From Gammaproteobacteria bacterium (GTDB taxonomy: Bacteria > Pseudomonadota > Gammaproteobacteria > SZUA-140), in assembly GCA_020845975.1 (NCBI GenBank), contig JADLET010000118.1, positions 1 to 36,657 on the forward strand: a stretch of 36,657 nucleotides of DNA. The letters are read 5' to 3'. Shown here in pieces: positions 1,614 to 32,969 of the stretch. The number at the start of each line of letters is the position of its first letter. The first letter of the stretch is position 1. Made by a program: the position numbers and the translations under genes. Below the pieces are notes generated by a model. It made no database searches. It was not told where the DNA came from and saw only the letters and a program-made list of their open reading frames with translations.

Positions 1614-1676
1614 GCCGAGGTTATCAGGGGCGATCAATCGCATGATATGCCCCGTAGTCAACCTGAAGGGGACGAT

Positions 1677-4142
<2,466 letters not shown>

Positions 4143-8309: not shown

Positions 8310-8590
8310 ACAAGGGATTGCCACTATTTGCCGTAGCTCACGCCACCAGCCTGTTCTTCGTCATCACCTTCTCTCTGTGCGTAGCATTCGATTTAGTCTT
8401 TCCCGAACACGCCATGTACCAGGCCTGGCAGAAACTCCTGCCGGGCTTCGTGTGGTTGAGTTGGAAGAACTTCTTTCTCGGTCTGGTCGAGGCCTATGGT
8501 TACGGCTGGTACGTCGCCCTGGTATGGGTGCCTCTATATAACGTATTCGCGGCGCGGGCCGCGCAGCGCGGGGGAAGGACATCTCCATGA
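8306..8590 (+). CDS. DUF5676 family membrane protein (copy 1)
   Basis: A 94-residue membrane protein with two long hydrophobic segments and the conserved core 'LLPGFVWLSWKNFFLGLVEAYGYGWY', ending 'WVPLYNVF'. This is the DUF5676 pattern; its function is unknown, but the family travels with YHS, DUF2933 and heavy-metal ATPase genes. It overlaps YHS upstream and the porC-like gene downstream, both by ATGA, so all three are translationally linked. A paralogue at 20750 follows a DUF2933 gene instead of a YHS gene. Confidence 0.72.
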   Translation: MNKGLPLFAVAHATSLFFVITFSLCVAFDLVFPEHAMYQAWQKLLPGFVWLSWKNFFLGLVEAYGYGWYVALVWVPLYNVFAARAAQRGGRTSP

Positions 8591-10373: not shown

Positions 10374-10384
10374 GAGGCCTAGCC

Positions 10385-11368: not shown

Positions 11369-12987
11369 ACCGACTGGCCATCGAACCCGGCAGCACCGTC
11401 GCTTACCACACCGGCGACTGGCGCAACCAGCGGCCGGCCTATCGTGACAAGTGGCCGCCCTGCGGGCAGACCTGCCCCGCCGAGGAGGATGTCCAGGCGT
11501 GGCTGGCGCTGGCGAGCGACCGGCAGTGGGAGGCGGCCTGGCGCACACTCACGGAACGCAATCCCCTGCCGGCGGTGATGGGGCGCGTTTGTTACCACCC
11601 TTGCGAGCGCGCCTGTAACCGCGCGCATCTGGATACGGCAGTGAACATCCACGGCGTCGAACGTCATCTTGGCGATCTTGCCCTCCAACAGGGTTGGCGT
11701 CACCGCCCGCTGACCGACCAACAACAGACGCAACAGGTGGCGGTGGTGGGCGCGGGACCGGCGGGTCTCTCTTGCGCCTTTCAGCTGGCCCGGCGCGGCT
11801 TTCCGGTGACGATCTTCGACGCCCAGTCGACGCCCGGCGGCACCTTATCCAGCGGCATCCCCGAATATCGCCTGCCCAAGTCGGTAATGCAGGGAGAGAT
11901 CAACGCAATCCTCGCCCTGGGGATACAACTCAAGCTCAATACCCGCATCGGCGCTGATATCAGCGCAGACACCCTGCGCGAGGAGTTCGTTGCCGTCTTT
12001 CTCGCCGTCGGCGCCTTGCAGCCGCGCACCTACCCCGACGATGGTTACGGCGACCACAGCGTGATGAGCGGCGTTGATTTCCTGCGGCGCATCAACGATG
12101 GCGAGCGTCTGAGCCTGCCCGGGCAAATCGCCGTCATCGGCGGCGGCAACACCGCCATCGACGCCGCGCGCTGCGCGCGCCGTCTGGGTGCGGAGGTGAC
12201 GGTAGTGTGTTCGCAGGATCCCCACGGCAGCCATGGGGGACATCCCGGTGCGGAGATACCCGCCTCCCTTGACGAGGTGAACCAGGCCGAAGCTGAAGGC
12301 GTGCGGCTGCGTTATCGCATGGGTGTACAGCGTTTGGTCCGCAGCGGCGCCCATCTGTCCGGCGTGGAGATCGCCCGCGTCGACCAGATCCACGACCGTC
12401 ACGGCCGATTCAATCCAGTGTTGTTCGAAGGGACCGAGGAATTTCTGCCCGCCAGCTTGGTGGTCTTCGCCATCGGCCAGGAGGTGGACTGGAGGGGATT
12501 GGAGCCCTTGGTCCAAACGGAAACATCGGGAATCTTTGTCGGCGGCGACGCAGCGGGCAAACCGCGTTTCGCTGCCACCGCCGTTGGCAGCGGCTATCAA
12601 GCGGCCATGTCGATTATCGCGTTGCTCACGGGTGTTCCACCCCATTACGAACATCATGACAAGGCCGAGGTTACCTTCCGGGACATCAAGCCTCAGTATT
12701 ACCCGCGCCAGGCCCGCCGAGAAGGTGCGCTGATGGCCGCGTCACCCGGTGAATTCAGCGAACGTGTGGCCGGACTTGGCAACGAGGCGGCGCATGAAGA
12801 GGCTGGCCGCTGCCTGAACTGCGGCATCTGTTTCCAGTGCGACAACTGCTGGCACTTCTGTCCCGACGCCGCGGTGATCAAGCAAGGTCAGGGTTACAGG
12901 ATCGATGACGACTACTGCAAGGGCTGCGGGATATGTGCTGAGGAATGTCCTAGCGGACACATCGATATGGAACGTGTGGCTGGCTAG
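11365..12987 (+). CDS. GltD-like FAD/NAD(P) oxidoreductase fused to a 2x[4Fe-4S] PorD-like domain
   Basis: A 540-residue flavo-iron-sulfur protein. The N-terminus has the Cys pattern of glutamate-synthase small-chain proteins (CGQTCPAEEDVQ, then CYHPCERACNR). FAD binding is shown by 'VVGAGPAGLSCAFQLARRG' and NAD(P) binding by 'IAVIGGGNTAIDAARCARRLG'. The C-terminal 70 residues hold two iron-sulfur motifs, CLNCGICFQCDNCWHFCP and CKGCGICAEECPSGH, replacing a separate PorD delta subunit. Start ATG 11365 overlaps the porB stop. I infer that it passes electrons between PorABC and the NAD(P)H pool, or to ferredoxin. It could alternatively act as an NADPH-dependent sulfur/glutamate-type reductase, but its genetic coupling to porCAB favours the first reading. 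Confidence 0.85.
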   Translation: MNRLAIEPGSTVAYHTGDWRNQRPAYRDKWPPCGQTCPAEEDVQAWLALASDRQWEAAWRTLTERNPLPAVMGRVCYHPCERACNRAHLDTAVNIHGVERHLGDLALQQGWRHRPLTDQQQTQQVAVVGAGPAGLSCAFQLARRGFPVTIFDAQSTPGGTLSSGIPEYRLPKSVMQGEINAILALGIQLKLNTRIGADISADTLREEFVAVFLAVGALQPRTYPDDGYGDHSVMSGVDFLRRINDGERLSLPGQIAVIGGGNTAIDAARCARRLGAEVTVVCSQDPHGSHGGHPGAEIPASLDEVNQAEAEGVRLRYRMGVQRLVRSGAHLSGVEIARVDQIHDRHGRFNPVLFEGTEEFLPASLVVFAIGQEVDWRGLEPLVQTETSGIFVGGDAAGKPRFAATAVGSGYQAAMSIIALLTGVPPHYEHHDKAEVTFRDIKPQYYPRQARREGALMAASPGEFSERVAGLGNEAAHEEAGRCLNCGICFQCDNCWHFCPDAAVIKQGQGYRIDDDYCKGCGICAEECPSGHIDMERVAG

Positions 12988-13387: not shown

Positions 13388-14575
13388 ATGGCAGAAACAA
13401 ACATCGAAATAGACGATCCTGAAGGGTCTGTTCGGATTGCCGGAGCAGGCCCGGCGGGACTGGCCGCCGCCGTCACCCTGGCGCGAGCCGGCCGCCGGGT
13501 CATCGTGCACGAGACGCATCCGGAGGTGGGTTATCGTTTCGGATCGGACCTGCAAGGCTTGGAAAACTGGAGCACTGAACAGAACGTATTCGATATGCTG
13601 CGAGGCCTGGGGCTCGCAACGGGGTTCGCCGCCCTGCCTTGTGTGCGTGGCATCGGTTTCGACGCCTGGGGTGAACGCTACGATATCGTCGGAAAGAAAC
13701 CGCTTTTTTATCTGGTGGAACGAGGTCCTGGACCGAGTACTTTGGACTCGGCCTTGCTCAATCAGGCGCGCTCACTGGGAGTGGAAGTGTGCTTCAACAG
13801 CCGGCTCGATCAGGTGGAGGGACCCGCCATACTCGCTACCGGACCCAAGACGGCGGACGCCATCGCAGTCGGTTATCACTTCGAGAGCGACTGGGACGAC
13901 GGCTTTTGGATTATTTATGACGATGCCATCGCCCCCAAAGGCTATGCCTATCTCCTGATCATGAACGGCCGGGGTACTGTCAAGAGCTGTATGTTCACCG
14001 ACTTCAAGCAGGAACAGCGGTATGTGCAACGCACCGTGGAGGCCTTTCAACGCCTGGTGGGTTTGGAGATGAAAAATCCTCAGCCCCACGGCGGCGCCGG
14101 TAATTTCCGCATCCCCGCGCGTGCGGTCACCGGTGTGCATCCGGTGGCGGGCGAACAGGCGGGATTTCAGGATTTTCTGTGGGGCTTCGGCATGCGCTAC
14201 GCGATGATATCCGGCGTGCTGGCGGCACGCAGCCTGTTGCAGGGCGAGGACTATGATCGCTTATGGCGCAAGGAGCTGGGGTCGCAACTCTGGAACGGTC
14301 AGGTCAACCGGGCCATATTCGCTTCGCTGGGCAATCGTGGTTACCGCTGGTTTTTGCGCCGCAACCGGACAAGGCGGTGGGACGCACATCTTTTCCTTCA
14401 CGGATTTTACCAGCCCTGGCCGGTAAAACGGTTGCTGTTACCCTGGGCACGCCGCCAGCTGCGTTCGCGGCGCAAGGACGTGAGCTGTGATCACATGGAT
14501 TGTCATTGCGTATGGTGCCGCCACGGCGGTCAGGCCAGGGCGGGAACTTCATGTGAACATGAGCGTAAACCATGA
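13388..14575 (+). CDS. Geranylgeranyl-reductase-like FAD-dependent oxidoreductase with Cys-rich tail
   Basis: A 395-residue flavoprotein from ATG 13388 (the ORF-track TTG at 13349 overlaps SHOCT; no start has a strong RBS). It has an N-terminal Rossmann FAD motif (IAGAGPAGLAAAVTLARAG) and, near residue 260, a region 'FRIPARAVTGVHPVAGEQAGF' followed by 'GFGMRYAMISGVLAARSLL', the usual FAD-contacting end of the geranylgeranyl-reductase/halogenase group. The C-terminus is odd: a basic stretch leads into CDHMDCHCVWC and a further Cys/His, which looks like a metal or iron-sulfur site. The gene overlaps the YHS-LOG gene by ATGA. The substrate is unknown; reduction of an isoprenoid or quinone is one option, a redox partner of the por electron chain another. 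Confidence 0.72.
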   Translation: MAETNIEIDDPEGSVRIAGAGPAGLAAAVTLARAGRRVIVHETHPEVGYRFGSDLQGLENWSTEQNVFDMLRGLGLATGFAALPCVRGIGFDAWGERYDIVGKKPLFYLVERGPGPSTLDSALLNQARSLGVEVCFNSRLDQVEGPAILATGPKTADAIAVGYHFESDWDDGFWIIYDDAIAPKGYAYLLIMNGRGTVKSCMFTDFKQEQRYVQRTVEAFQRLVGLEMKNPQPHGGAGNFRIPARAVTGVHPVAGEQAGFQDFLWGFGMRYAMISGVLAARSLLQGEDYDRLWRKELGSQLWNGQVNRAIFASLGNRGYRWFLRRNRTRRWDAHLFLHGFYQPWPVKRLLLPWARRQLRSRRKDVSCDHMDCHCVWCRHGGQARAGTSCEHERKP

Positions 14576-15342
14576 TGCGTGATCCCGTCTGTCTCATGGT
14601 GCTCGAACCCCGCAAAGCGGCGGCAATGGCCGAATTCAAAGGTTATGCCTATTACTTTTGTTCGGAGGGGCACAAGCAGAGCTTTATCTCTCGGCCTGAG
14701 CTTTATAGAGACGAGGCATCGGCCATGCGCCTGAACGTGGGTGTTATGGGCTCGGCGGACGATGATCACCCCGAGGTGGTGAGGGATCAGGTACGCGCCC
14801 TGGGTCATGCAATCGGGCAGCGCGGTTTCATCCTCATCACCGGCGCCTGTCCCGGCCTGCCCTACGAATGTGCCGTGGGTGCGCGGGGAGGAGGCGGCTG
14901 GTCGGTGGGCATTTCTCCGGCACTGAGCCTGGATGAGCATGTGCACAAATATCACTCGCCTATGGACATGTTCGATGTGCTGATCTATACCGGCAGCGGC
15001 CTCATGGGGCGCGAGGTGACCAACATCCGCTCCAGCGACATGGTGGTGATCGTGGGTGGGCGCTCCGGCACGCTCGGCGAGTTTGCCATCGCCTACGACG
15101 AAGGCAAATTGATCGGAGTGTTGCAGGGCAGCGGTGGCATTACCGAAGAGATCCCCGGCATCGTAGCCAGCTTCGGTGACAAGGACACCGGTGCGCGGAT
15201 GATCTACGAAGCCGACCCCGCCGTTCTGATTGAGCGCCTGGTTACGATGTATATCGAGCAACATTACCGCCGCCCGTCCTGCTTTTGCGAAGAAACGGAT
15301 ACCGTGGGTGTGGGAGAAGAGGAACGATCGGCGATGAAATAA
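14572..15342 (+). CDS. YHS domain fused to LOG/SLOG-family protein
   Basis: A 256-residue two-part protein. Residues 1-45 form a YHS domain (RDPVCLMVLEP, YYFCSEGHKQSF); the rest is a LOG-type Rossmann fold (TIGR00725-like) with 'ITGACPGLPYECAVGA' and 'VIVGGRSGTLGEFAIAYDEGK', a variant of the PGGxGTxxE motif. Classical LOG proteins are cytokinin riboside monophosphate phosphoribohydrolases, and SLOG proteins often sense or process nucleotide ligands. Here the catalytic Glu position is present (GEF) but the leading PGG is VGG. The fusion suggests a metal-linked nucleotide sensor or hydrolase; no more can be claimed. It overlaps the flavoprotein upstream by four bases. Confidence 0.8.
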   Translation: MMRDPVCLMVLEPRKAAAMAEFKGYAYYFCSEGHKQSFISRPELYRDEASAMRLNVGVMGSADDDHPEVVRDQVRALGHAIGQRGFILITGACPGLPYECAVGARGGGGWSVGISPALSLDEHVHKYHSPMDMFDVLIYTGSGLMGREVTNIRSSDMVVIVGGRSGTLGEFAIAYDEGKLIGVLQGSGGITEEIPGIVASFGDKDTGARMIYEADPAVLIERLVTMYIEQHYRRPSCFCEETDTVGVGEEERSAMK

Positions 15343-20749: not shown

Positions 20750-21016
20750 ATGCTCAACACAAAACTGGTTTCCTGGGCCTTGGGTTTGTCGGGCGCGGTC
20801 ATGTTTACGACGTGCGTCGTATACGGTCTGGTAACGCCGCAGAGCCTGCACATGCATGAGTTTCTCGAGCAGCTGCTGCCGGCGTTCAAGTGGCTCACCT
20901 GGTGGGGCTTCCTGCTCGGCCTCGTGGAGAGCTTTCTCTACGGCGTGTATGCCGGGCTGGTGTACGTGCCGATCTACAACTTTCTCCAGCGGCGCTGGGG
21001 GAATGCCCAGTCGTAA
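20750..21016 (+). CDS. DUF5676 family membrane protein (copy 2)
   Basis: An 88-residue membrane protein, paralogue of the gene at 8306: shared core 'LLPAFKWLTWWGFLLGLVESFLYGVY' and ending 'YVPIYNFL'. It has two to three hydrophobic segments. ATG 20750 is preceded by GGAGG; the longer ORF from 20585 is out of frame inside the previous gene. The function is unknown, but repeated association with metal-binding small membrane proteins suggests a membrane partner for them. Confidence 0.72.
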   Translation: MLNTKLVSWALGLSGAVMFTTCVVYGLVTPQSLHMHEFLEQLLPAFKWLTWWGFLLGLVESFLYGVYAGLVYVPIYNFLQRRWGNAQS

Positions 21017-21170
21017 TGAATGCGCGGTGGGGTCCTATGGTTCGGTGATGGCACTTTGTCAGGGGCAGACTCAAGGCTGCGGTGGATTATATGTTGGACC
21101 AACTTAAGTGACAGGTTGTGTAGTAATGATGTGTGTCATGTTGCTTCAATAATTAAAAGGGGTTAGAACC

Positions 21171-24083
21171 ATGAACCAAAAAAGAGAAATCGTTCTGATC
21201 ACCGGCTGTAACGGACGCATCGGCAGCGCGGTGATGCGGCGGCTGACCGGAGGCTTCAGCGATGTCGTGGGTCTCGACCGCAACGCGTCTACACCGCCGC
21301 CCACCGACTGTGTCTACATACGCGTCGATATCACTTCCGATGACAGCGTGCGCGAGGGACTGCGTATCCTGCGGGAACACCATGGAACCCACATCGCGAC
21401 CGTGATCCATCTGGCCGCCTATTACGATTTCCTCGGCAAGCCGAGCCCGAAATACGATGAGATCACGGTCGAGGGCACGAGACGCCTGCTGCGAGGGCTG
21501 CGCGCGGGCTTCGAGGTCGAGCAGTTCATTTTCTCCAGCACCATGCTCGTGCACCGGCCGGGCGAGCCGGGCATATTTCTCACCGAGGACTCGCCGATCG
21601 GGCCGACCTGGGCTTACCCGGAGTCGAAGGTTCGCACCGAGGCGCTCATCCGCGCGGAGCGCGGCGCAATTCCCGCCGTGATCCTGCGCCTCGCCGGCGT
21701 CTACGACGATGTCTGCCACTCGCCGCCGCTCGCGCACCAGATCCAGCGCATCTACGAAGGGCAGCTCGCCGGCCACCTGTATTCCGGCGAGACTTCGCAC
21801 GGCCAGACCTTCATCCACCTGGACGACGTGGTCGACGCCATCGAATGCGCGATCGAGCGGCGCGCGCAGCTCCCGCCGGAGGTGGCGATCCTGATCGGCG
21901 AGCCGGAGACGCTGAGCTACGACGAGCTGCAGCACACGTTCATGCGCCTGCTGCACAAGAAGTCGGGCGAGACGCACAACGTCCCCGGGCTCATCGCGAA
22001 GGTGGGCGCCTGGATCCAGGACCAATTGCCCGGCCCGGAACAATTTATCAAGCCGTGGATGATCAACCGGGCCAATGACCACTACGCCCTCGACATCACG
22101 CGCGCGCGCAGCCTGCTCGATTGGGCGCCCCGGCGTTCGCTGCGTCAGACCCTGCCGAAGATGGTCGCGGCGCTGGAAGCCGATCCCATCGGCTGGTACC
22201 GCGAGCACGGCCTGGAGCCGCCCGCGTCTTTAGTGCGGGCGGCGAGGCGGGCCATGGCGGAGGCGCCCGCTGCGGCGGGTGCGCAGGGCTGCCTGATGCA
22301 TACCTGTCCGATGCATCCGGAGGTGTGCCAGTGTTCGCCGGGAAATTGTCCGAGGTGCGGCACGACCCTGGAACCCGCACCATTGTCGCAGGCGGTCGAG
22401 TATACCTGCCCGATGCATCCCGAGGTGGTGGCCGGCGAACCGGGCCGCTGCCCCCAGTGCGGCATGGCGCTGGAACTGCGCACCGCTTCGGTCGAAGAAC
22501 ATGCCGGGCATGGCGATATGACGCCTGCCGGACAGACGGTCGAGTACACCTGTCCGATGCATTCGGAAATCGTGCGCAGCGAACCGGGCAGTTGTCCCAA
22601 GTGCGGTATGAGGCTGGTACCGCGCGGCGCCAAGGTTGATGAGCTTGCCGGGCACGGCGGCGACATGATGGTCGAAAGCCATCGCAATATGCTCTGGCCC
22701 TATTATCTCAGTATGATGCTCGGCTTCTGGCTGTTGATCAGCCCGTTCACGCTCGGCTACATGAGCGACTTCGTTCCTGACGCCAACCAGTTGCGGGTCA
22801 TGGCCGAGCGCGGGTTGCCCGCGTTCGAGCTGCGCAACCTGCTGATGAGCTGGAGCGATGTCATCAGCGGTATCTTGGTGATAGTCTTCAGTGCGCTGTC
22901 CGCGGACGCATGGCGCCGCAATCCCTGGGCGCAGTGGGCCAACGCCTGCGTCGGCTTGTGGCTGCTGTTCGCACCGCTGGTGTTCTGGACACCGTTGCCG
23001 GAGGCCTATGCGAATGGCACCCTGGTCGGCGGGCTGGTGATCGCGCTGGCGGTCTTGATTCCGATGATGCCGGGCATGAGCATGGCCGGCATGATGGGCA
23101 AGCCGGACGTGCCGCCGGGCTGGGCCTATACACCGTCGAGCTGGTTGCAGCGCATGCCGATCGGTGTGCTCGCCCTGATCGGCTTTTTGATCGCGCGCGT
23201 CCTGGGGGCCTATCAGCTCGGCCACATCGATACCGTTTGGGAGCCATTATTCCCTGGTAGCGGTGACATGAAGGGCGTGATGAACGGCACGGAGACGATC
23301 ATCACCTCGGACGTGTCCAAGGCCTGGCCGATTGCCGATGGCGCCCTCGGCGCAATCGTCTACACGCTCGAGCTGGTGATGACCTGGATGGCCGGCAAGG
23401 ACCGCTGGCGCACCATGCCTTGGATGGTACTAGGGCTGGGCGTGCTGATTCTGCCGCTCGGTGTCGTCAGCATCTATTTTGTCATCATCCAGCCGATCGT
23501 GATCGGCACCTGGTGCACTCTGTGTCTCATCGCCGCGCTGGCGATGGCGGTGATGATTCCCTATTCGCTCAACGAGTTCGTCGCCATGGGCCAATTCCTG
23601 GTGTGGGCGCGCAAGCAAGGCAAACCTTTCTGGCGCACATTCTGGACCGGCGACGCGATGGATGGTGGCAGCGACGACACGTCCATAGGCCTCGTCGGAA
23701 CACCCCGGGAGCAGTTCGCACAAGCCACACGCGGCGTGACTTACCCTTGGACATTGTTGCTCAGTATCGCGATCGGCGTCTGGCTCACGTTCACGCGACT
23801 CACTTTCGACAGCTCCGGTGCCATGGCCGACAGTGATCATCTGGTCGGTTTGCTGGTAGTGACGTTCACGATCATCGCTTTGGCCGAAGTCGGCCGTGCC
23901 ACGCGCTTCATCAATATCCCGTTCGGCGCCTGGCTGATCGCCGCGCCGTGGCTGCTCGACGGCATCGCCTCGCCGCTGGCGACCTGGAACGGCGTGATCT
24001 GCGGCGTGCTGCTGATTGCATTGGCGATCCCGCGCGGGCCGATCAAGAATTCTTATGCGGGCTGGGATCGATATGTTGTTTAG
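21171..24083 (+). CDS. Fusion: NAD-dependent epimerase + three HMBD + SPW/VKOR membrane domain
   Basis: A 970-residue multidomain protein. (a) Residues 1-365: extended SDR/epimerase fold with 'LITGCNGRIGSAVMRRL' (GxxGxxG) and 'YPESKVRTEALI' (YxxxK). (b) About 373-490: three HMBD units, [17 protein letters not shown] and YTCPMHSEI, each followed by CPxCGxxLxP. (c) About 505-640: SPW-type membrane repeats. (d) About 680-820: a vitamin-K-epoxide-reductase-like region with 'WPIADGALGAIVYTLE', 'RWRTMPW' and the redox CxxC in 'WCTLCLIAALAMA'. (e) A second SPW-like set to the end. The two loop cysteines of classical VKOR are missing. The RBS is AAAAGGGG. I see no frameshift, so the fusion is real in this sequence. 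It may join metal capture to thiol/quinone redox chemistry; the epimerase substrate is unknown. Confidence 0.85.
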   Translation: MNQKREIVLITGCNGRIGSAVMRRLTGGFSDVVGLDRNASTPPPTDCVYIRVDITSDDSVREGLRILREHHGTHIATVIHLAAYYDFLGKPSPKYDEITVEGTRRLLRGLRAGFEVEQFIFSSTMLVHRPGEPGIFLTEDSPIGPTWAYPESKVRTEALIRAERGAIPAVILRLAGVYDDVCHSPPLAHQIQRIYEGQLAGHLYSGETSHGQTFIHLDDVVDAIECAIERRAQLPPEVAILIGEPETLSYDELQHTFMRLLHKKSGETHNVPGLIAKVGAWIQDQLPGPEQFIKPWMINRANDHYALDITRARSLLDWAPRRSLRQTLPKMVAALEADPIGWYREHGLEPPASLVRAARRAMAEAPAAAGAQGCLMHTCPMHPEVCQCSPGNCPRCGTTLEPAPLSQAVEYTCPMHPEVVAGEPGRCPQCGMALELRTASVEEHAGHGDMTPAGQTVEYTCPMHSEIVRSEPGSCPKCGMRLVPRGAKVDELAGHGGDMMVESHRNMLWPYYLSMMLGFWLLISPFTLGYMSDFVPDANQLRVMAERGLPAFELRNLLMSWSDVISGILVIVFSALSADAWRRNPWAQWANACVGLWLLFAPLVFWTPLPEAYANGTLVGGLVIALAVLIPMMPGMSMAGMMGKPDVPPGWAYTPSSWLQRMPIGVLALIGFLIARVLGAYQLGHIDTVWEPLFPGSGDMKGVMNGTETIITSDVSKAWPIADGALGAIVYTLELVMTWMAGKDRWRTMPWMVLGLGVLILPLGVVSIYFVIIQPIVIGTWCTLCLIAALAMAVMIPYSLNEFVAMGQFLVWARKQGKPFWRTFWTGDAMDGGSDDTSIGLVGTPREQFAQATRGVTYPWTLLLSIAIGVWLTFTRLTFDSSGAMADSDHLVGLLVVTFTIIALAEVGRATRFINIPFGAWLIAAPWLLDGIASPLATWNGVICGVLLIALAIPRGPIKNSYAGWDRYVV

Positions 24084-24232: not shown

Positions 24233-25183
24233 ATGAAATGCCAGCTGATACGAGTTCTAGTTGCGCATATTTTGATGCTTATCCCATTGGCAGGAGCGCT
24301 CGCGGTTTCTCCCGCGCAGGCGCAACAAGAGCCAGCGGAAAAGATCCAACCGCCTGCTGCGGATGCCAATCATGCGCAGGAAATTAACAAGGCGTACTTC
24401 GAGCAACTGAGAAACGGCAGCCTGATGATCGGACATATGAGCCTCGCGCTGATGGCGCTGGAACATGGGGTCCTCGATGTTGCGGGTAAGGACGTGGACG
24501 AAGCCCTGAAGCTTGCTCGAACGTTGGAAAAGAGTGTGCCCGAGTTCAAATCCAAGGACTCGCTGCGCTTCGGCAAGCTGATCCATGAAGAGGAAAACAC
24601 CACCAGGGTGTTCTATATCCCGATCGTGGACGAGAGCTTCATGGTGCATGGCTTAGATACGCGCGGTGGGGAACGCGAGAAAATCCGCGAAACCGATGCC
24701 AGAATGGTGCATGCCCATGTATCGCTCGACATACGCAAGGCGGTAAGCGGCCTGACGGACGCCAAGGCCGCACTGGAAAAGAAAGATGCCAAGGCGGCGG
24801 AACAGGCGCTGACGGGAATCATGAGTGCAACTGTGGGTGATGAAGTGATCGTGAACGATCCGCTGCATGTGACACATGACAACCTGATTCTGGCCGCGAA
24901 CCTGCTGCGCGAGGAGCGTTACGATTCCGCGCGTTTTGCCCTCAAATACGCCAGAAAAGACTTGGGCGATTATAGTTCACGGGTGCATGACCCAGCACGG
25001 AAACAGCATGTGGAACAGATGCGGAAGGAGATCGACGCCCTCTCTGATCGCTTACGCAAGGAAGATCCCACCACACTGCAAAAGACCGAAGATACAGTCA
25101 AGGGCTGGGGCGCGAAGGTAAAAAAGTGGTTTGACCACCCCGCTCCCGAACCCGGCCATATACCAGAACCACAAAGCCGGTAA
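24233..25183 (+). CDS. YfdX-like periplasmic protein
   Basis: A 316-residue exported protein: signal peptide (LVAHILMLIPLAGALAVS, cleavage near AQA-QQ) and a mostly helical mature part. Segments 'VFYIPIVDESFMVHGLD', 'DARMVHAHVSLDIRKAV' and 'VNDPLHVTHDNLILAANLL' fit the YfdX family, which is acid- or stress-related in enterobacteria and also present in heat-resistance islands. The C-terminal 60 residues are charged and end in Pro-rich sequence beyond the usual family length. RBS GGAGGATAGG is strong. A chaperone-like role is plausible by family only. Confidence 0.68.
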   Translation: MKCQLIRVLVAHILMLIPLAGALAVSPAQAQQEPAEKIQPPAADANHAQEINKAYFEQLRNGSLMIGHMSLALMALEHGVLDVAGKDVDEALKLARTLEKSVPEFKSKDSLRFGKLIHEEENTTRVFYIPIVDESFMVHGLDTRGGEREKIRETDARMVHAHVSLDIRKAVSGLTDAKAALEKKDAKAAEQALTGIMSATVGDEVIVNDPLHVTHDNLILAANLLREERYDSARFALKYARKDLGDYSSRVHDPARKQHVEQMRKEIDALSDRLRKEDPTTLQKTEDTVKGWGAKVKKWFDHPAPEPGHIPEPQSR

Positions 25184-25657: not shown

Positions 25658-25789
25658 ATGAACACAAATAGCACTGAACTTCTGCGCGCCCATCTTGATA
25701 CGCTCAGAGTGGAACGCCTTGTACTGGCCGCGCGCACGCGGGTATCGTCGACGTGCCTATTTGCAATCATCCGCAGCGCAGCCAGGTGA
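25658..25789 (+). CDS. Possible small or truncated ORF before ppk2
   Basis: ATG 25658 opens a 43-codon frame (MNTNSTELLRAHLDTLRVER...) ending just before the ppk2 start. The first 30 residues look helical and protein-like, the rest not. It may be the start of a gene whose remainder was deleted, as is common in the right third of this window. No family is recognised. Confidence 0.25.
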   Translation: MNTNSTELLRAHLDTLRVERLVLAARTRVSSTCLFAIIRSAAR

Positions 25790-25799
25790 GGCAATAGCC

Positions 25800-26606
25800 A
25801 TGAGCAAGAAAAACAAAAAACAAGGTTCGAACGGGCATCCGCCCTCGATCTCGAAAAAGGCCTATAAGGACAACCTGCACAAACTCCAGGTCGAACTGGT
25901 TAAGCTTCAGCGGCATTTCATTCAGTGCGATGACAAAATCCTGATCATCCTTGAAGGCCGGGACGCCGCTGGAAAAGACGGCACGATCAAACGCATTGTC
26001 GCGCATTTGAGCCCGCGCGAAACCCGCGTCGTGGCCCTCGGCAAGCCCTCGGACCGGGACCGTACCTCGTGGTACTTCCAGCGTTATGTGCCTTATTTGC
26101 CGGCGGCCCGGGAGCTCGTGCTGTTTAACCGCAGCTGGTACAACCGGGCGGGGGTGGAGCGGGTCATGGGCTTCTGCACCGAAGCCGAGTATCAGGAGTT
26201 CATGGGCTCGGTGTCGGACTTCGAGCATATGCTGGTGCGCTCGGGCATCAAGCTGCTCAAGTATTACCTCGACATAAGTAAGCCCGAGCAGAAGCAACGC
26301 TTGGAAGAGCGCGAGCGTGATCCGCTCACGCAATGGAAAGTCAGTACGCTTGACGATCTGGCGCTCAAGAAGTGGAAACAATACAGCCTGGCGCGCGACG
26401 AGATGCTGGCACACACCCACAACCCCATTGCGCCGTGGACCATCGTGTGCGCCAACAACAAGCATCTGACACGGCTCAATATCATCAAGGATCTTCTCAG
26501 CCGGTTGCACTACGCAGGCAAGGATGAGCGGCTGATTCTGCCGGACCCGAAAATCGTGTTTGCATTCGATATTTCAAATATAGAAAACGGCCGGCTCGCA
26601 AAGTAA
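25800..26606 (+). CDS. ppk2: Polyphosphate kinase 2
   Basis: A 268-residue cytoplasmic kinase that transfers phosphate between polyphosphate and nucleotides. Walker A is 'LEGRDAAGKDGTIKRI' (about residue 60) and Walker B 'LFNRSWYNRAGVERVMGF'; 'YLDISKPEQKQRLEER' and 'DPLTQWKVSTLDD' form the rest of the PPK2 core. It is a single-domain form. ATG 25800 begins after a basic stretch typical of PPK2 N-termini (MSKKNKKQ); the ORF-track start at 25695 has no RBS. It could regenerate ATP or GTP from polyphosphate under metal or energy stress. An 11-codon piece like its C-terminus reappears at 36619. Confidence 0.93.
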   Translation: MSKKNKKQGSNGHPPSISKKAYKDNLHKLQVELVKLQRHFIQCDDKILIILEGRDAAGKDGTIKRIVAHLSPRETRVVALGKPSDRDRTSWYFQRYVPYLPAARELVLFNRSWYNRAGVERVMGFCTEAEYQEFMGSVSDFEHMLVRSGIKLLKYYLDISKPEQKQRLEERERDPLTQWKVSTLDDLALKKWKQYSLARDEMLAHTHNPIAPWTIVCANNKHLTRLNIIKDLLSRLHYAGKDERLILPDPKIVFAFDISNIENGRLAK

Positions 26607-26650
26607 ACCGGGATGGCACAAGAGAATTTTAGTACGACCATTTTTTTATA

Positions 26651-26717
26651 GAGGAGATACAAGATGCGGATCGGCATGATAGGCCTGGGACGTATGAGCA
26701 GCAATATGGTGCGGCGA
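26651..26717 (+). repeat. Partial copy of the gnd leader and first codons
   Basis: GAGGAGATAC and ATG at 26664 followed by '[17 protein letters not shown]' are nearly identical to the start of gnd at 31950 ('[17 protein letters not shown]'). The similarity stops at about 26717 and the sequence runs into an unrelated channel fragment. A still shorter copy of the same leader precedes the cytochrome at 30508. Confidence 0.75.
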
Positions 26718-26749
26718 TTGTCGGCAGTCAACCCCCCGGCCTTGCTGAA

Positions 26750-26908
26750 TGTACCTACTTCTCGTTTTCCAACCATAGTTCGCTGGGCTATGGTGACCTG
26801 GTGCTATCGGGGCCGTTTCGTTTTATGGCCGGTATGGAGGCGCTGACCGGACTAGTATTAATTGGCTGGACGGCATCATTCATGTATTTGCATATGCGGC
26901 GCATCTGA
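26750..26908 (+). pseudogene. C-terminal fragment of a K+-channel-like membrane protein
   Basis: Reading in the frame that ends at TGA 26906-26908 gives 'CTYFSFSNHSSLGYGDL' and 'VLIGWTASFMYLHMRRI'. This is the pore and last helix of a two-helix ion channel, where 'SLGYGD' stands at the selectivity filter. The first helix and start codon are missing, and the fragment is fused to the 5' end of a gnd copy in another frame. It is not expected to make a working channel. The ORF-track entry at 26664 is an artefact of this junction. Confidence 0.7.
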
Positions 26909-27231
26909 GAACGCGAGCGATCATGACCGCCAGTAGCCGTGACACGGTCTTGCTTTGCAGAAAAGAATTAACAACAATGAGTTACGCGTTTGGTGGGCAT
27001 GATTATAAGAAACCTGTGCGCGTCACACAGGTGTACAACACAAATTGTCTAAACCACAACAACAACGTAACCAGGCAATGGCTTAAAAATTACCCTTTAC
27101 AAAGCAGTTTCAATTTATCTGTGCGTTCGGTAGAGCTCGGAACAACTAGACTTTCAATGTTAACGTTGCCATACGAACTTTCGAACCTTGGAATCTGGGG
27201 TTTTCTGATCAATTAATATTTAGAGAGTGCG
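26909..27231. other. AT-richer region without a convincing gene
   Basis: This 323-bp stretch is visibly richer in A and T than its surroundings and contains a 97-codon frame (26923-27216) with unremarkable composition, no RBS and no recognisable family. It sits between two pseudogenes and is most likely non-coding or decayed. Confidence 0.5.
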
Positions 27232-27482
27232 ATGAAAAACCCGCAAGACATGGGCAAACAAATGGACATAATGCGGGAAAGTATGCTGAAAATGCATGAA
27301 CAAATGCACACGATAATGGATGCAAAGAATCCGCAGGAGCGCGTGCGGCTCATGCAAGATCATCGGCACATACTGCCCGGCCTATGCAGACCATGAAGGA
27401 CGGGGGCATGATAGGCGGTGATGCGAAAAGCAGCATGGGCGTGGGAAAGCAACAAAAAGACGGCCAAGAGCATAGATGCTAG
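27232..27482 (+). pseudogene. Frameshifted Met-rich protein relative
   Basis: From ATG 27232 the frame encodes 'MRESMLKMHEQMHTIMDAKN' and 'RVRLMQD', closely like the Met-rich proteins at 1077 and 28013, then stops at TGA 27394-27396. Shifting frame at about 27380 recovers 'MQTMKDGGMIGGDAKSSMG' to a TAG at 27480-27482, which is the Met/Gly end of the same family. The signal peptide is absent and a stop lies shortly upstream. It is a decayed, probably duplicated copy. Confidence 0.72.
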
Positions 27483-27584
27483 CGCGGTGAACTAACGGCC
27501 AGTGTCGCCAGCAAAATGTGTCAGGGGAGCTCGCTCCATTCTCAGGTGTCAATCAAGCCAACTTAATACAAGGAGATTAATCTC

Positions 27585-27779
27585 ATGACCGCAACAAACA
27601 AAACGGCTCTTGTCATCGCGTTTGCCGTCGTCCTAGCACTACTTCTGTTGCTCGGCGGCGGGGCGATGACCGGGACAACAATGAGCGGCGGGATGATGGG
27701 GAGCGGAACGATGGGCGGAATCGGTTGGATGTGGATTCCGACTTTACTTGTGCTCGGTCTCGGGGTCCTGCTCGCTTGA
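27585..27779 (+). CDS. Small Met/Gly-rich membrane protein, possibly shortened by a nonsense codon
   Basis: A 64-residue protein with two hydrophobic segments (ALVIAFAVVLALLLLL and WIPTLLVLGLGVLLA) joined by a Met/Gly loop, MTGTTMSGGMMGSGTMGG. The TGA at 27777-27779 is followed in the same frame by VIFGQKK and a second stop at 27801-27803. This basic tail is what would be expected at the membrane exit, and TGG at the first stop position would restore it. It may still be functional without the tail. RBS AAGGAGATTAA is strong. It lies between two Met-rich genes and probably belongs to the same metal set. Confidence 0.6.
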   Translation: MTATNKTALVIAFAVVLALLLLLGGGAMTGTTMSGGMMGSGTMGGIGWMWIPTLLVLGLGVLLA

Positions 27780-28012
27780 GTTATCTTCGGGCAGAAGAAG
27801 TGATCAGTAAACGCCACCCTAGCAAGTGGAATACGAAATTGCAGTACGGATATGTGTCAGTAACAAAGAGCAGTGAGGCGGTCACGTTTGTATACTAACA
27901 GCTTTAATAAAGTTGCTGCTGACAGGCGTGACAACCTTTAATGCCGTAGCAATAAAACTGGGGAATGTCCCCGCTAACCTTACATCAACCTCAACGTGGA
28001 GACTTAACAAAG

Positions 28013-28348
28013 ATGAAAAAAGCACTTCTCATAGTTGTACTGGCCACCTTGCCGTTCTCCATTCCGCTTTCCTGGGCGGATGACGCCCACCATACCGATA
28101 AGGACAAGAAGCTGGCATCAACCATGACAGACAAGGACAAACAAATGCAGATGGCCAAGATGCAGGAAAGCATGCTGCGGATGCATGAGAAAATGCACAA
28201 AATCATGCAGTCCAAGGACGTCAATGAACGAGAGGAGCTTATGCAAGAGCACTCGAAGATGATGCAGGACAACATGTCCATGATGCAGGGCATGATGGGC
28301 GGTGATGCCAAAGACCGGGAGATGGATGGCGGCATGAAAGGTATGTGA
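28013..28348 (+). CDS. Met-rich periplasmic protein (shorter paralogue)
   Basis: A 111-residue exported protein: signal peptide (KALLIVVLATLPFSIPLSWA-DD) and a mature part rich in Met, Lys and His: 'AKMQESMLRMHEKMHKIMQS', 'ELMQEHSKMMQDNMSMMQGMMGG'. It shares an aligned core with the protein at 1077 (RMQESMQAMQ..., RLMQEHMQQMH) and likely binds soft metals in the periplasm. ATG 28013 begins the basic n-region; the ORF-track start at 27965 has no signal-like beginning. No RBS of good quality is seen. Confidence 0.75.
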   Translation: MKKALLIVVLATLPFSIPLSWADDAHHTDKDKKLASTMTDKDKQMQMAKMQESMLRMHEKMHKIMQSKDVNEREELMQEHSKMMQDNMSMMQGMMGGDAKDREMDGGMKGM

Positions 28349-28449
28349 AATGGCACGTACGGCATGGTGAAACATGCCGTGCCGTTCCCGCCTACGGTTT
28401 ATAAAACTTGAGGGCCGAAGCACAACGCGAAGCATTTTTGGAGACGGCT

Positions 28450-28680
28450 ATGGATGTAATAATCATCGCGACGAAGGCTTGTACACATCGTATGAACCTG
28501 GAAAAAGAACTCGAACACTTGCAGATTCCGTATCACACGTGTTTCGTGGAAGACTGCGTAGACCTTGTCCAAAAGTTTGGCATCCGGCATTCGCCGAATT
28601 TGGTAGTGGACAATGAGGTCGTGTTCCGGAAACAGCCGTCGGAAATAGAGCTGCACGCCTATTTTGGCGCCAAGACATAA
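28450..28680 (+). CDS. Glutaredoxin/thioredoxin-fold small protein
   Basis: A 76-residue protein, starting at ATG 28450 inside the longer ORF. It has a beta-alpha-beta beginning 'DVIIIATKACTHRMNLEKELEHLQ' and 'IRHSPNLVVDNEVVFR', where the cis-Pro after Ser and the strand pattern match glutaredoxin-like thioredoxin domains. The usual CxxC is reduced to one Cys in 'TKACTHR'. It probably acts as a thiol-exchange or metal-transfer factor. It is followed at once by an intrinsic terminator, marking the end of a transcription unit. Confidence 0.7.
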   Translation: MDVIIIATKACTHRMNLEKELEHLQIPYHTCFVEDCVDLVQKFGIRHSPNLVVDNEVVFRKQPSEIELHAYFGAKT

Positions 28681-28685
28681 AGCGG

Positions 28686-28705
28686 GCCCGGAAACCCGGG
28701 CTTTT
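28686..28705 (+). terminator. Intrinsic terminator
   Basis: GCCCGG, loop AAAC, CCGGGC, then TTTT: a 6-bp GC-only stem followed by a short T-run, five bases after the thioredoxin-fold gene. This is the clearest Rho-independent terminator in the window. Confidence 0.8.
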
Positions 28706-28839
28706 CATCAGATACTGGGCCGCCGGTTAGGCGAGGTTTTATTGAGAAAGAGTTTGTGTTGGTTTGGATGAATTACCCCCAAGCTGACAGCACCCACAAA
28801 GCGTGGCAACCACACTATGGTGATAAGGAGGGTAATAAA

Positions 28840-29025
28840 ATGGCGACTGATCCAGTATGCAAAATGAACGTGGAGCCGGAAAAGGCAGTAGCCAAGGAAA
28901 ATTTCGCCGGTCAGGAGTACTACTTCTGTTCAGATACCTGCCACAAGTCATTTGTTGCTGAGCCAAAGAAGTATGCAAGCGGTGCAGCACCCGCCGACCA
29001 CTCGTGCTGTGGCGGGCATAAGTAG
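28840..29025 (+). CDS. Stand-alone YHS domain protein (second)
   Basis: A 61-residue protein of one YHS domain (TDPVCKMNVEPEKA, YYFCSDTCHKSF) with a C-terminal SCCGGHK that adds thiols. AAGGAGGG precedes ATG 28840. It is similar in layout to the protein at 15451, so the two may be duplicates or share a role as small metal buffers. The MFS gene starts three bases after its stop. Confidence 0.85.
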   Translation: MATDPVCKMNVEPEKAVAKENFAGQEYYFCSDTCHKSFVAEPKKYASGAAPADHSCCGGHK

Positions 29026-29028
29026 CTG

Positions 29029-30333
29029 ATGAGAGGCGCGGAGTTTATTCAGATCGGCGGCGCGCAACCTGCGGGTCACACGGCCACTATGGTGACGCTC
29101 ATGCTCGCCGTCTTCACAGTGTCGATCGGCTTTGGTGTCGTGCTTCCGCTTCTGCCCTACCTGATCGAGCGGCTACTGGGCACGGGAGTAGAGGCGGCGC
29201 AAGTTTCCCGGCACACCGGGCTACTGACCGCCGTCTACACCCTCGCGCTTTTTCTGTTTGCGCCGTTGTGGGGTCGGTTGTCCGATCGACACGGACCACG
29301 TACCGTGCTGCTTGTGGGGCTGCTCGGCTTCGGCGCCATCATGCTGATTTTCTCGTTAATCGAGAGTCTCACGGCGATTTACGCCGAGCGCCTCTTGAGC
29401 GGCCTGTTTGCGGCGGCGGTGACGCCGGTAGCAGCGGCGGTAGTCGGCGGCGTCACTACGACAGAGCAGGGACGCGCCCGCCGACTCGCATTCGTCGCCA
29501 TGAGCAGCATTGCCGGTTTCCTGCTCGGTCCGATGCTGGGCGTGTTCGTCACGCATTTTGCAGAGAATGTCTTCACTCTCGCCATACCGGCTGGCTCGGT
29601 TGCAATTCCGCTCATGGCGACGGCACTACTCGCCTTTCTCGTGGCCCCCGCTGTCGCGTTTGCTGTGCCGGGTGGCCAGGTCCGTGCTCAGCCAAAGAAA
29701 ACGATGAGTCTCTCCATGGATAAGACGGCATGGTTGGTGCCGAAGCTGCTCATCCTCACCTTCATTGTCTCGGCCGGCATCGGGGTGTTCGAAGTCGGAC
29801 TGGCGCTGCGCGGCAAGCAGGAGCTCGGCTTGACCCCCTACCAGATCGCGCTGATGTTCACTGCATGCAGCTTGATTATGTTTGTGATCCAGGCATTTGT
29901 ATTTTCGCCCTGGTTCAAGCCGGGCGCGACGCGCTGGCTCATCGCGCCCGCCTTGTCCGTACTGACCGTCGGTTTGTCCCTCATACCGTGGGCGTCTGAT
30001 TTTACGCTGATGCTGGTTGTGATTGGCGCTGTCGCGGCCAGCGCCGGTATTCTCTCGCCGATCCTGATCTACTGGATCTCGGCCAAGGCCGGCAGTGAAC
30101 AAGGCTGGCAACTTGGCAAGCAGGCGGCGGCCGCCAGCCTGGGAATCACCGTGGGTTCGGCAGCCGGCGGACTTCTCTTCAATGTCGTCGCCTTGCCTGG
30201 CGCCCCCTTCGTGCTGACTGCAGGACTCGTTGCGCTGGGCTTTCTGCTGAGCCTCGGACTGCCACATATACTCCTGCCACTTTTACCAACAAAGGTGAAA
30301 GCAATGCCCCCAAAGGAGCAGGCCTATGAATAA
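29029..30333 (+). CDS. Major facilitator superfamily transporter
   Basis: A 434-residue inner-membrane protein with about 12 hydrophobic segments. Motif A is 'GRLSDRHGPRTV' (between helices 2 and 3). An 'AERLLSGLFAAAVTPVAAAVVGG' follows, and a middle loop rich in Lys separates the two halves. This is the drug/H+ antiporter type; the substrate cannot be named. It may start at ATG 29029 (poor RBS) or at 29089 (MVTLMLAVF). Its end overlaps the phosphoketolase fragment by eight bases. Co-location with YHS suggests a metal- or toxin-related export role, but no more. Confidence 0.88.
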   Translation: MRGAEFIQIGGAQPAGHTATMVTLMLAVFTVSIGFGVVLPLLPYLIERLLGTGVEAAQVSRHTGLLTAVYTLALFLFAPLWGRLSDRHGPRTVLLVGLLGFGAIMLIFSLIESLTAIYAERLLSGLFAAAVTPVAAAVVGGVTTTEQGRARRLAFVAMSSIAGFLLGPMLGVFVTHFAENVFTLAIPAGSVAIPLMATALLAFLVAPAVAFAVPGGQVRAQPKKTMSLSMDKTAWLVPKLLILTFIVSAGIGVFEVGLALRGKQELGLTPYQIALMFTACSLIMFVIQAFVFSPWFKPGATRWLIAPALSVLTVGLSLIPWASDFTLMLVVIGAVAASAGILSPILIYWISAKAGSEQGWQLGKQAAAASLGITVGSAAGGLLFNVVALPGAPFVLTAGLVALGFLLSLGLPHILLPLLPTKVKAMPPKEQAYE

Positions 30334-30499
30334 GCCGCTGCGCCCGGAAGTGTTGCACAAGGTGAACGTCCACTCGCGAGCCACCAACTACTTGCCAGTG
30401 GGACAGAGTTACCTGTACGACCATTTGTTACTGCCTCCCAATGGAAGATGTTTTCACATCGCGTTGTTTATTAAAAGGACTACTGTTATCAAAGATTGA
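30326..30499 (+). pseudogene. N-terminal remnant of phosphoketolase
   Basis: ATG 30326 overlaps the MFS stop and begins 'MNKPLRPEVLHKVN', then 'RATNYLPVGQSYLYD', which is the conserved beginning of xylulose/fructose-6-phosphate phosphoketolases (normally about 800 residues, with RAANYLSVGQIYLYDN). Similarity ends near residue 38; an unrelated stretch (GRCFHIALFIKRTT...) runs to TGA 30497-30499. The enzyme is therefore lost here, while other pentose-phosphate genes remain nearby. A Trp/Ala segment is replaced (HSRATN instead of YWRAAN), consistent with decay. Confidence 0.75.
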
Positions 30500-30507
30500 G
30501 ATACAAG

Positions 30508-31074
30508 ATGCAGATCGGCATGAAAACAATTCTAGTAACACTGGGCATTAGCGCTCTTCTCGGCGCGCTCGCCGCGCTTGGCGTGATTTACTCGGGCGTC
30601 TTCAACGTGGCCGCGACGGTCACCGACGCGCCGCCCCTGCGCTTGGTGTTCGTTACAACACGGGAAGCGTCCATAAAACGCCATGCGCGAGACATTCAGG
30701 CGCCGGCGCTGGGTGGGGCGCAGCAGGTGGAAAACGGGTTTCGCATTTATCGGGAGGACTGTGTCATGTGCCATACCCCAGTCGGCCGGACGGCGACGCC
30801 GATGGCGATCGGGCTGAATCCGCAAGCGCCGACCTTTGAAGAGATTGATATGACCGCCGCCGAGCAGTTCTGGGCGGCCAAGAACGGCATCCGGTTCACG
30901 GGCATGCCGGCCTGGGGCCCGTCCCGAAGCGACCAGGAACTGTGGGACGTCATCGCGTTCGTGATGACGCTTCCGAAGATGAGCGCTGCGGACTACGACG
31001 CGCTGGATCGCCGTGTTCCTCCCGGGTCAGCACTGCAGAGCGGGACACCCGATGTCGTAAACGATACGCGTTGA
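30508..31074 (+). CDS. Membrane-anchored mono-haem c-type cytochrome
   Basis: A 188-residue protein with an N-terminal membrane helix (ILVTLGISALLGALAALGVIY), a periplasmic domain with one haem motif CVMCH and a plausible axial Met in 'FTGMPAWGPSRSDQELWDVIAFVMTLP'. The latter is typical of cytochrome c family proteins that precede or sit within electron-transfer chains. The start region is a copy of the gnd leader (ATACAAGATGCAGATCGGCATGA), so translation probably begins at ATG 30508 within that borrowed RBS, adding MQIG; ATG 30520 could be the original start. It follows the phosphoketolase fragment by eight bases. Confidence 0.85.
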   Translation: MQIGMKTILVTLGISALLGALAALGVIYSGVFNVAATVTDAPPLRLVFVTTREASIKRHARDIQAPALGGAQQVENGFRIYREDCVMCHTPVGRTATPMAIGLNPQAPTFEEIDMTAAEQFWAAKNGIRFTGMPAWGPSRSDQELWDVIAFVMTLPKMSAADYDALDRRVPPGSALQSGTPDVVNDTR

Positions 31075-31138
31075 AAACGCCAAGCGTCCGAGGGCTATCG
31101 GGAGAACTACACAAACAATTATTTATGGAAAACTGATT

Positions 31139-31878
31139 ATGCACCATAGCAACGTACCGTATTGCATTCCAACACTGCCACGAGCGTTTCTCCTGGCGCT
31201 GGTCGTCACCGGTCTCTCCGGCTTGCCACGCCCAGCAGTCGCAGAGATGGATGAAATAGCACACCCGTTCCTCTCTCATGAGGGACTTCCCGATGCGGTG
31301 GGCAGCTACAGCCTGCGTACCTCCGGACTGTCGACGCGGATTGATGGCGAGACGAAGGGAGACTTCGCCTTCCACATGGAAACCGGCCTCACCGAGACCA
31401 TCGACCTGCACGTCCGCAGCGATCAGTTTTTGCAGTCGCGGCGCAGTGAGGTGATGTTCCAGTTCGTCGCCTGGAAGAGCCAGGATGGCGAGAGCGGATT
31501 TGCACCGATCATCGAGTTTGAGGTACCCACGCGCTCGGGCGGCGGCAAGCCGGCAACCCTGGTGGGATTCACGACGAAGCTCGCGAACTCGCAGGTTGCA
31601 TTTAACCAGAGTTTCCACTATGAGCCGGCGGAGAAGGCCATGGAGGGCAGCGCGGCCGTAGTGCTGCGAGCGAGCGGATCTACCCGGTGGTCGAGCTTAT
31701 GGGGAGCGGAGGGACGGGCAAGCCGACCATCGTGAACCTGCTCGCGGGGGTGAAGTACCGGCTGCCTGGGGGTGCTTTTATCGGTGTCGCCTACCAGCGC
31801 CCGGCGACTAACGCCCGCGAGCTCTCGTCGCAGATCGTCGCGCAGCTTGAGTTCATGTTGGCGACGTCGGCCCACTGA
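31139..31878 (+). pseudogene. Frameshifted gene for an exported, probably outer-membrane beta-rich protein
   Basis: The first frame (31139-31735) encodes a signal peptide ('AFLLALVVTGLSGLPRPAVA-EM') and a region of short strands ('TETIDLHVRSDQFLQ', 'MFQFVAWKS'). It loses this character near 31670. In another frame, from about 31675, 'YPVVELMGSGGTGKP' and 'AGVKYRLPGGAFIGVAYQRP' continue to TGA 31876-31878, ending like a beta-barrel. A single frameshift joins the two halves into a coherent product of about 246 residues. The family is not recognised. It may be a sequencing error, but the neighbouring debris supports real decay. Confidence 0.6.
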
Positions 31879-31949
31879 GATGCAATGACCGTTCCTTATC
31901 ACGCCTGCGATGCGCGGCAGGCGAGACCGGAATTCAAAGGAGATTTAAA

Positions 31950-32969
31950 ATGCAGATCGGCATGATAGGTCTGGGACGTATGGGCAGCAATATGATGCGG
32001 CGCCTGCTGCAGGGAGGGCACGAATGTGTGGTGTACAACCGTAGCGCCGAAGCCGTCAACGTACTCCGCAGCGAAGGTGCCTTCGGGACGGTCGCGTTGG
32101 AGGATTTTGTCGCCCGCTTGAGCAAGCCGCGCGCGGTCTGGTTGATGGTGCCGGCGACGGTCGTGGATGAGGTGCTGGCCCAGCTGCTACCGCTGCTCGA
32201 AGCAGGCGACATTGTCATCGATGGCGGCAATTCCTATTACCGCGACGACATCCGGCGCGCGGCCGAATTGCAGCAGAACGGAGTGCATTATGTGGATGTG
32301 GGCACCAGCGGCGGCGTCGCCGGGCTGGAACGCGGCTATTGTCTGATGATCGGTGGCGAGAACGACATGTTCCGGCACCTCGATTCAGTCTTTGCCACGC
32401 TCGCCCCGGGCGTGGGCACGTCAGCACGCACCCCCGGTCGGCACAAGCCCGACGCCACCGCGGAACAGGGCTACCTGCACTGCGGTCCGCATGGCGCCGG
32501 GCACTTCGTCAAGATGGTCCACAACGGCATCGAATATGGCCTGATGGCGGCGTATGCCGAGGGCATGAATATTCTGCATAACGCCAACGTCGGCAAGCGC
32601 GAGCACGATCGCGATGCCGAGACTGCGCCGATGCGCGACCCGGAGTATTACCAATATGATCTGGACCTGCCCGAGATCGCGGAAGTCTGGCGGCGTGGCA
32701 TTGTGGTGGCGTCATGGCTGCTCGATCTGACGGCGGCGGCACTGGTGGAGGATGCGGAACTCAGCGGGTTCTCGGGACGGGTGTCGGATTCGGGTGAAGG
32801 CCGCTGGACGGCACTGGCCGCCATCGACGAGGGCGTGCCGACGCCGGTCATCAGCGCGGCGCTGTTCGAGCGCTTTTCCTCGCGCGGCAATGCCGACTAT
32901 GCCAACCGGATTTTATCGGCGATGCGAAAACAGTTTGGCGGGCATGATGAAAAGAAAAAAGAACACTGA
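31950..32969 (+). CDS. gnd: 6-phosphogluconate dehydrogenase, decarboxylating (short form)
   Basis: A 339-residue enzyme converting 6-phosphogluconate to ribulose-5-phosphate and CO2 with reduction of NAD(P)+. It has '[20 protein letters not shown]' (nucleotide binding), '[12 protein letters not shown]', '[21 protein letters not shown]' and the catalytic '[16 protein letters not shown]'. The length is that of the YqeC/GntZ-type, often NAD-dependent, rather than the 470-residue E. coli Gnd. AAAGGAGAT precedes the ATG. It overlaps zwf, giving an oxidative pentose phosphate pair. Its 5' end has been copied at 26651 and 30500. Confidence 0.93.

Follow-up and report, generated by a model that had tools for sequence, protein, structure and literature searches.

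The window analysed here, a 36,657-nucleotide stretch of DNA from a gammaproteobacterium, encodes at positions 21171..24083 (forward strand) a 970-residue protein in which a soluble extended SDR, three HMBD modules and a polytopic SPW-VKOR-SPW membrane part are fused, and which belongs to a protein family that is widespread yet sporadic. The fusion is genuine, and it appears to be a two-module membrane protein that may have spread horizontally among metal and stress islands. We propose that it acts as a metal-stress membrane oxidoreductase, in which a cytoplasmic SDR is linked to a degenerate VKOR-fold core and Cu/Ag-type metal on the hinge tunes this coupling, a reading that we consider plausible and still somewhat short of probable.

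The fused gene and its orthologues

The reading frame begins with an ATG, 5' of which the sequence AAAAGGG (21156..21162, read directly; this and all features within the gene lie on the forward strand) resembles a ribosome-binding site, and it is open with no internal stop. Pfam searches bore out the preliminary description of a single 970-codon frame joining an SDR/epimerase, three metal modules and an SPW/VKOR membrane part, in that all four were found. The extended SDR or NAD-dependent epimerase domain (PF01370) occupies residues 1-350 (21171..22220), with the Epimerase match covering residues 8-240 (4e-21) and the motifs TGxxGxxG, D36 and Y149xxxK153. It is followed by HMBD 1 (22296..22376), HMBD 2 (22401..22481; absent from the two-HMBD orthologues L043 and L044) and HMBD 3 (22545..22625), all assigned to PF19335 (2.7e-28 and 98 bits for the three, against a gathering score of 23.6). 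The first two modules read CPMHPEV, as had been described for all three, whereas the third reads CPMHSEI. Within the membrane module (22707..24029), two SPW repeat domains (PF03779; 22845..23054 and 23748..24026; 8e-24, 84 bits against a gathering score of 31.5) flank a VKOR-family four-helix domain (PF07884; residues 663-799, 23157..23567) that covers model positions 2-133 of 134 (E=5e-22). Neither the E1-E2 ATPase and HAD hydrolase domains of a P1B-type copper ATPase nor a thioredoxin domain was found by Pfam in the fused protein.

Orthologues that are 76-85% identical over residues 1-970 span the junction between the SDR and the membrane part in several independent assemblies, which rules out the assembly join or missed stop near 22240 that had been raised as a caveat; together with the plasmid matches they also rule out a one-off oddity found only in this genome. 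The best orthologues, with two or three HMBDs, come from Thiogranum, a betaproteobacterium, Devosia and other assemblies, and the two-contig genome G259 holds the fusion twice, one copy having 3 HMBD-type motifs and the other 5. The core SDR-SPW-VKOR-SPW fusion is present in several phyla and in more than 100 plasmid records. At least 529 encoding stretches were found in a scan with one genome per species, of which the best 80 provided the loci examined, and 251 plasmid records of PLSDB match, in 115 of which a single place accounts for 80% or more of the protein. Relatives also occur in MAGs of Acidobacteriota, Bacteroidota, Gemmatimonadota, Deinococcota, Chloroflexota and Myxococcota. A class-wide sample has the family in 8 of 369 genomes and a phylum-wide sample in 6 of 399. 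HMBD-bearing members are over-represented in the scans because these were seeded with the window protein. The source genome, a 207-contig assembly with 4.6% contamination, carries an HMBD-less paralogue elsewhere (L028:5115-8200, reverse strand, equivalent to G000:C122:37114-40199).

Codon comparison of the window gene with seven orthologues gave dN/dS values of 0.15-0.25 for the SDR and 0.08-0.17 for the membrane part. The HMBDs are under purifying selection, with values mostly of 0.03-0.2 (0.05-0.12 for HMBD 1, 0.03-0.13 for HMBD 3) and a single HMBD 2 value of 0.70, whereas the spacer between HMBD 2 and HMBD 3 is under much weaker constraint than the domains (0.2-1.1).

The SDR half has the TGxxGxxG motif, the acidic residue after strand 2 and the YxxxK motif of extended SDRs, and in the family alignment G12, G15, D36, Y149 and K153 are invariant in 48 of 48 members and S123 is kept in 46, which makes it likely that the SDR binds NAD and is catalytically active. 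Its closest folds (AF2 and Foldseek) are UDP-glucose 4-epimerase and dTDP-glucose 4,6-dehydratase, with which it shares these motifs, although it is only about 16-25% identical to solved structures of the group and differs further in being fused to, or encoded next to, a membrane protein. A nucleotide-sugar or isoprenoid-type substrate had been suggested and found no specific match: the best NCBIfam equivalogs, GalE (43.3 bits against a cut-off of 262.3) and HpnA (34.9 against 367.7), are far from being reached, and since every equivalog score is far below its cut-off no substrate can be named.

The membrane module and its relation to VKOR

The averaged hydropathy profile gives 12 transmembrane helices, an even number, with a regular positive-inside alternation. 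The SDR, the HMBDs and both ends of the protein are accordingly predicted to be cytoplasmic, which agrees with the earlier expectation that the HMBDs face the cytoplasm together with the SDR, and the CxxC (CTLC, C782-x-x-C785; 23514..23525) is predicted to lie at the periplasmic end of TM8. The AF2 model of the membrane module has pLDDT 88.7 and pTM 0.86, and the SDR fold was matched as described above, whereas in the model of the full protein (pLDDT 87.4, pTM 0.56) the inter-domain arrangement is not reliable. Foldseek returned no significant PDB match for the membrane module, with human VKOR (6wv6) at rank 7 (E=1.8, probability 0.51), and the kinship with VKOR therefore rests on the sequence profile. 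PF07884 and PF03779 are each matched by all 71 homologues aligned.

In human VKOR the loop cysteine pair C43/C51 relays electrons (PMC7462613). The corresponding predicted periplasmic loop of the fusion (residues 681-720, 23211..23330) holds no cysteine in any of the 71 homologues, and neither does the slightly longer segment 681-722. The CxxC is kept in 56 of these and both of its cysteines are jointly replaced (SxxA) in the other 15; outside that set, the L030 copy of genome G047 shows the same replacement. A VKOR-type thiol/quinone relay is thus unsupported, as the loop pair is absent from every member and the CxxC is dispensable. Canonical VKOR/DsbB identity was rejected, given the missing relay-loop cysteines and a separate DsbB in the source genome: its only DsbB (PF02600) is encoded on contig C84 and is not the fused gene, and apart from the fusion and its paralogue it encodes no VKOR or SPW protein. 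Of the earlier proposal of a thiol/quinone redox protein with a VKOR-like CxxC, the likeness to VKOR and the CxxC itself stand and the relay is unsupported.

Judged by profile and alignment, the domain is properly described as VKOR-fold and not as a VKOR-type thiol oxidase. It shares with the VKOR family the four-helix domain over the full profile, the place of the CxxC in most members and the predicted topology of this section. It differs in lacking the loop pair and, in part of the family, the CxxC, in sitting between SPW domains, and in being fused to an SDR instead of a thioredoxin domain. Other membrane residues (M633, M636, M737, M740, M749, M752, M792, M795 and H890) are strictly or nearly invariant. 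The SxxA members form an alphaproteobacterial clade (L052, L053, L054, L060, L061, L063-L065, L091, L102, L103, L108, L114, L116 and L117), whose hinges are often the most His/Met-rich.

Family architecture, genomic context and possible function

The constant core of the family is an SDR plus SPW-VKOR-SPW, with a hinge between them that carries 0, 1, 2, 3 or 5 HMBDs or a His/Met-rich stretch; in the window's clade the hinge has 1-5 HMBDs, and at L079, L097 and L028-L030 it has neither HMBD nor His/Met stretch. The fusion put forward as a novelty of this locus is real but not peculiar to it: the HMBDs vary as an insert at the hinge of a large SDR-SPW-VKOR-SPW family. Each domain is already known, and databases list proteins with the core architecture as 'NAD-dependent epimerase/dehydratase family protein' or, equally unspecifically, 'vitamin K epoxide reductase family protein'; examples are WP_189424537.1, WP_015447607.1 and WP_075153475.1, which have the same core without HMBDs and for which we found no described function. 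In the literature searched, no paper describing the SDR-SPW-VKOR-SPW fusion was found, and none that dealt with the SPW repeat or with VKOR together with copper resistance and either epimerase or multicopper oxidase.

The HMBDs are putative metal binders, judging from their Cys/His pattern. They share CPMHPEV...PGxCPxCG modules with the HMBDs (PF19335) of copper P-type ATPases and CusB-type adaptors, and HMBD 2 is 66-79% identical to both HMBDs of the copper ATPase in the same window. They differ from these in standing in tandem on a hinge that links a soluble SDR to a non-ATPase membrane protein. The hinges without HMBDs contain 90 MxxH/HxxM motifs where composition shuffles predict 28, with the motif present in 35 of 48 hinges. 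Such motifs occur in SilE, a periplasmic Ag+ sponge (PMC5008109); the likeness is one of motif only, and the hinge of the relatives is cytoplasmic by predicted topology. The range of hinges, from none to five HMBDs or His/Met stretches, offers a ready series for work on metal gating.

Many genomes encode the two halves as separate neighbouring genes, with the junction ATGA at L057, L069, L071, L075 and L110, TGATG at L109 and GTGA at L095. At L121 and L122 (genomes G344 and G327) the split cuts through the HMBD array, the two genes overlap by 8 nt at stop and start, and the products are SDR with two HMBDs and HMBD with SPW-VKOR-SPW. Fusion in some genomes and overlapping gene pairs in others suggest that the two halves work together. 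Pseudomonadaceae (Pseudomonas/Stutzerimonas) carry the membrane module without an SDR in the flank, up to about 9 kb, and since these copies lack a nearby SDR and some relatives lack an HMBD or His/Met hinge, neither hinge metal nor the SDR is needed universally. In a membrane-module tree, built by a quick method with SH-aLRT as its only support, the fusions with 2-5 HMBDs fall in a 20-row clade (SH-aLRT 100) in which Alpha-, Beta- and Gammaproteobacteria are intermixed, and this sharing of one clade suggests horizontal transfer. HMBD presence changed at least three times on the tree and the fused or split state at least eight times.

The fused gene lies between genes for a two-TM DUF5676 protein (20750..21016, forward; PF18926) and a YfdX-domain protein (24233..25183, forward; PF10938). 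One end of the window holds MerR-type regulators (106-513 and 523-1011) upstream of a copper-type P-type ATPase with YHS and two HMBDs (1647..4142, forward), in the same island and 17 kb from the fused gene, and the other end holds an HMA protein; between them are DUF5676, YfdX, PPK2, cytochromes, CMAS, YHS proteins and pentose-phosphate genes. Copper-resistance genes rank with the most frequent of the automatically called neighbours within 9.5 kb of 87 loci; we counted multicopper oxidase (20), CusA-type RND (19), MerR (18), copper-type ATPase (16) and CusB (14), as well as DUF305 and SCO (10 each), DUF411 (9), CopB and CusF (8 each), and many relatives adjoin CopA/CopB/Cus/CueR/Cu-ATPase genes. 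By our judgement, clear metal-resistance genes flank about 8 of 9 plasmid loci, the exception being a Microvirga locus with only SCO/CcdA/DsbA-type genes, whereas among seven control stretches taken from these plasmids one has them; both samples are small. The linkage to copper genes is clear for the wider family, with few plasmid controls. The HMBD clade itself has recurring neighbours (CMAS, cytochrome c, CBS, PEMT-type genes, PPK2) that are mostly related to stress or the envelope and not copper operons, so that its own copper link is weak and derives mainly from the HMBDs. Hundreds of genomes and plasmids carry the gene under uninformative names, many of them in copper-resistance islands, and it may be an overlooked component of bacterial metal tolerance. 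A second recurrent context consists of a GH15/trehalase-like enzyme and a classical SDR, at 15-16 loci each (among them L035, L052-L054, L073, L074, L083, L085, L087-L089, L091 and L092).

We suggest the following course for a metal-stress membrane oxidoreductase. Module 1 would be the extended SDR, lying in the cytoplasm and binding NAD(H), with its Tyr/Lys active site intact, and module 2 the 12-TM SPW-VKOR-SPW part. Under stress by metal, presumably of the Cu+/Ag+ type, the cytoplasmic hinge would bind it, and the metal-bound hinge might alter how the SDR and the membrane core are coupled. A redox or epimerising step of the SDR could then act on a small hydrophobic molecule in the membrane, either quinone-like or lipid-linked, which the VKOR-fold core would hold. 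The CxxC, where present, may be an extra redox- or metal-sensitive site that is not essential; a disulfide relay of the VKOR/DsbB kind is unlikely. The more specific picture of a hitherto undescribed class of metal-gated membrane oxidoreductases, with hydride passing between the cytoplasmic SDR and a substrate, quinone-like or a lipid, in a cysteine-independent VKOR-fold core, with a Cu+/Ag+ switch on a modular hinge and with spread alongside copper-resistance islands, we regard as doubtful. The metal-gated thiol/quinone redox protein of the preliminary description survives in part, since its HMBDs and VKOR profile are real and the thiol/quinone relay, for want of the loop pair, is unsupported. 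The family also comprises VKOR-fold proteins that naturally lack the relay cysteines and, in some cases, the CxxC, in which a thiol-free role of the fold can be asked about.

Other functions were weighed against this. A VKOR/DsbB-like enzyme that oxidises periplasmic thiols with quinone, aided by the SDR, and so protects or matures copper proteins would account for the full-length VKOR profile of all 71 homologues, for a CxxC at the predicted periplasmic end of TM8 in most of them and for the DsbA-family, TlpA, CcdA and SCO genes adjoining several loci. The cysteine-free loop, the loss of the CxxC in the SxxA set and L030, the lack of a thioredoxin domain, the separate DsbB and the insignificant Foldseek match to VKOR all count against such an enzyme, which we consider unlikely. 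The HMBD and His/Met hinges, the strictly or nearly invariant membrane methionines and H890, the copper-island context and the Pseudomonadaceae modules without a nearby SDR speak for a metal carrier or efflux helper, in which Cu+/Ag+ would pass from the hinge to these membrane residues and the SDR would be regulatory. Foldseek matched no known transporter fold, however, and the conservation of the SDR Tyr/Lys in 48 of 48 members goes beyond the needs of a purely regulatory part; we consider a carrier role rather improbable.

The VKOR fold of known members binds quinones, and the HMBD-less paralogue of the source genome (L028) overlaps by 4 nt (ATGA) the genome's only gene for an alternative oxidase (AOX), a ubiquinol oxidase, which hints at a link to the quinone pool. 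Both points favour an NAD(P)H-to-quinone or quinol-linked respiratory side branch, with hydride from the SDR and quinone in the VKOR-fold core. Yet the AOX adjacency concerns one of roughly 100 loci; a partnership with AOX as a family trait was sought at the other loci and none was found, and in the class sample the 8 further genomes with AOX do not overlap with the 8 that carry the family. SDRs, moreover, have no flavin, and quinone reduction would require direct hydride transfer; we give a respiratory branch a small chance. It is very unlikely that the protein is a metal-responsive envelope modifier, with an SDR that works at the membrane by epimerising or dehydrating a sugar, either lipid-linked or a nucleotide sugar: the nearest folds are UDP-sugar epimerases and dehydratases, and CMAS and phospholipid-methyltransferase-type genes recur near the HMBD clade, but no recurrent glycosyltransferase or sugar-pathway cluster surrounds the family loci examined and the SDR falls far under every equivalog cut-off.

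Other features of the window

A tRNA scan found no tRNA genes in the window. Inside the metal/stress island, positions 8587-12987 encode pyruvate:ferredoxin-oxidoreductase-like subunits (POR, POR_N, TPP) followed by an FAD/Fe-S pyridine nucleotide oxidoreductase, and at 14572-15342 a SLOG cluster-4 (LOG-like) domain is fused to a YHS domain. PPK2, 6-phosphogluconate dehydrogenase (6PGD), G6PD, a HAD hydrolase and transaldolase form one stretch at 25695-36172, and PPK2, G6PD and 6PGD also recur beside a few relatives of the fusion.
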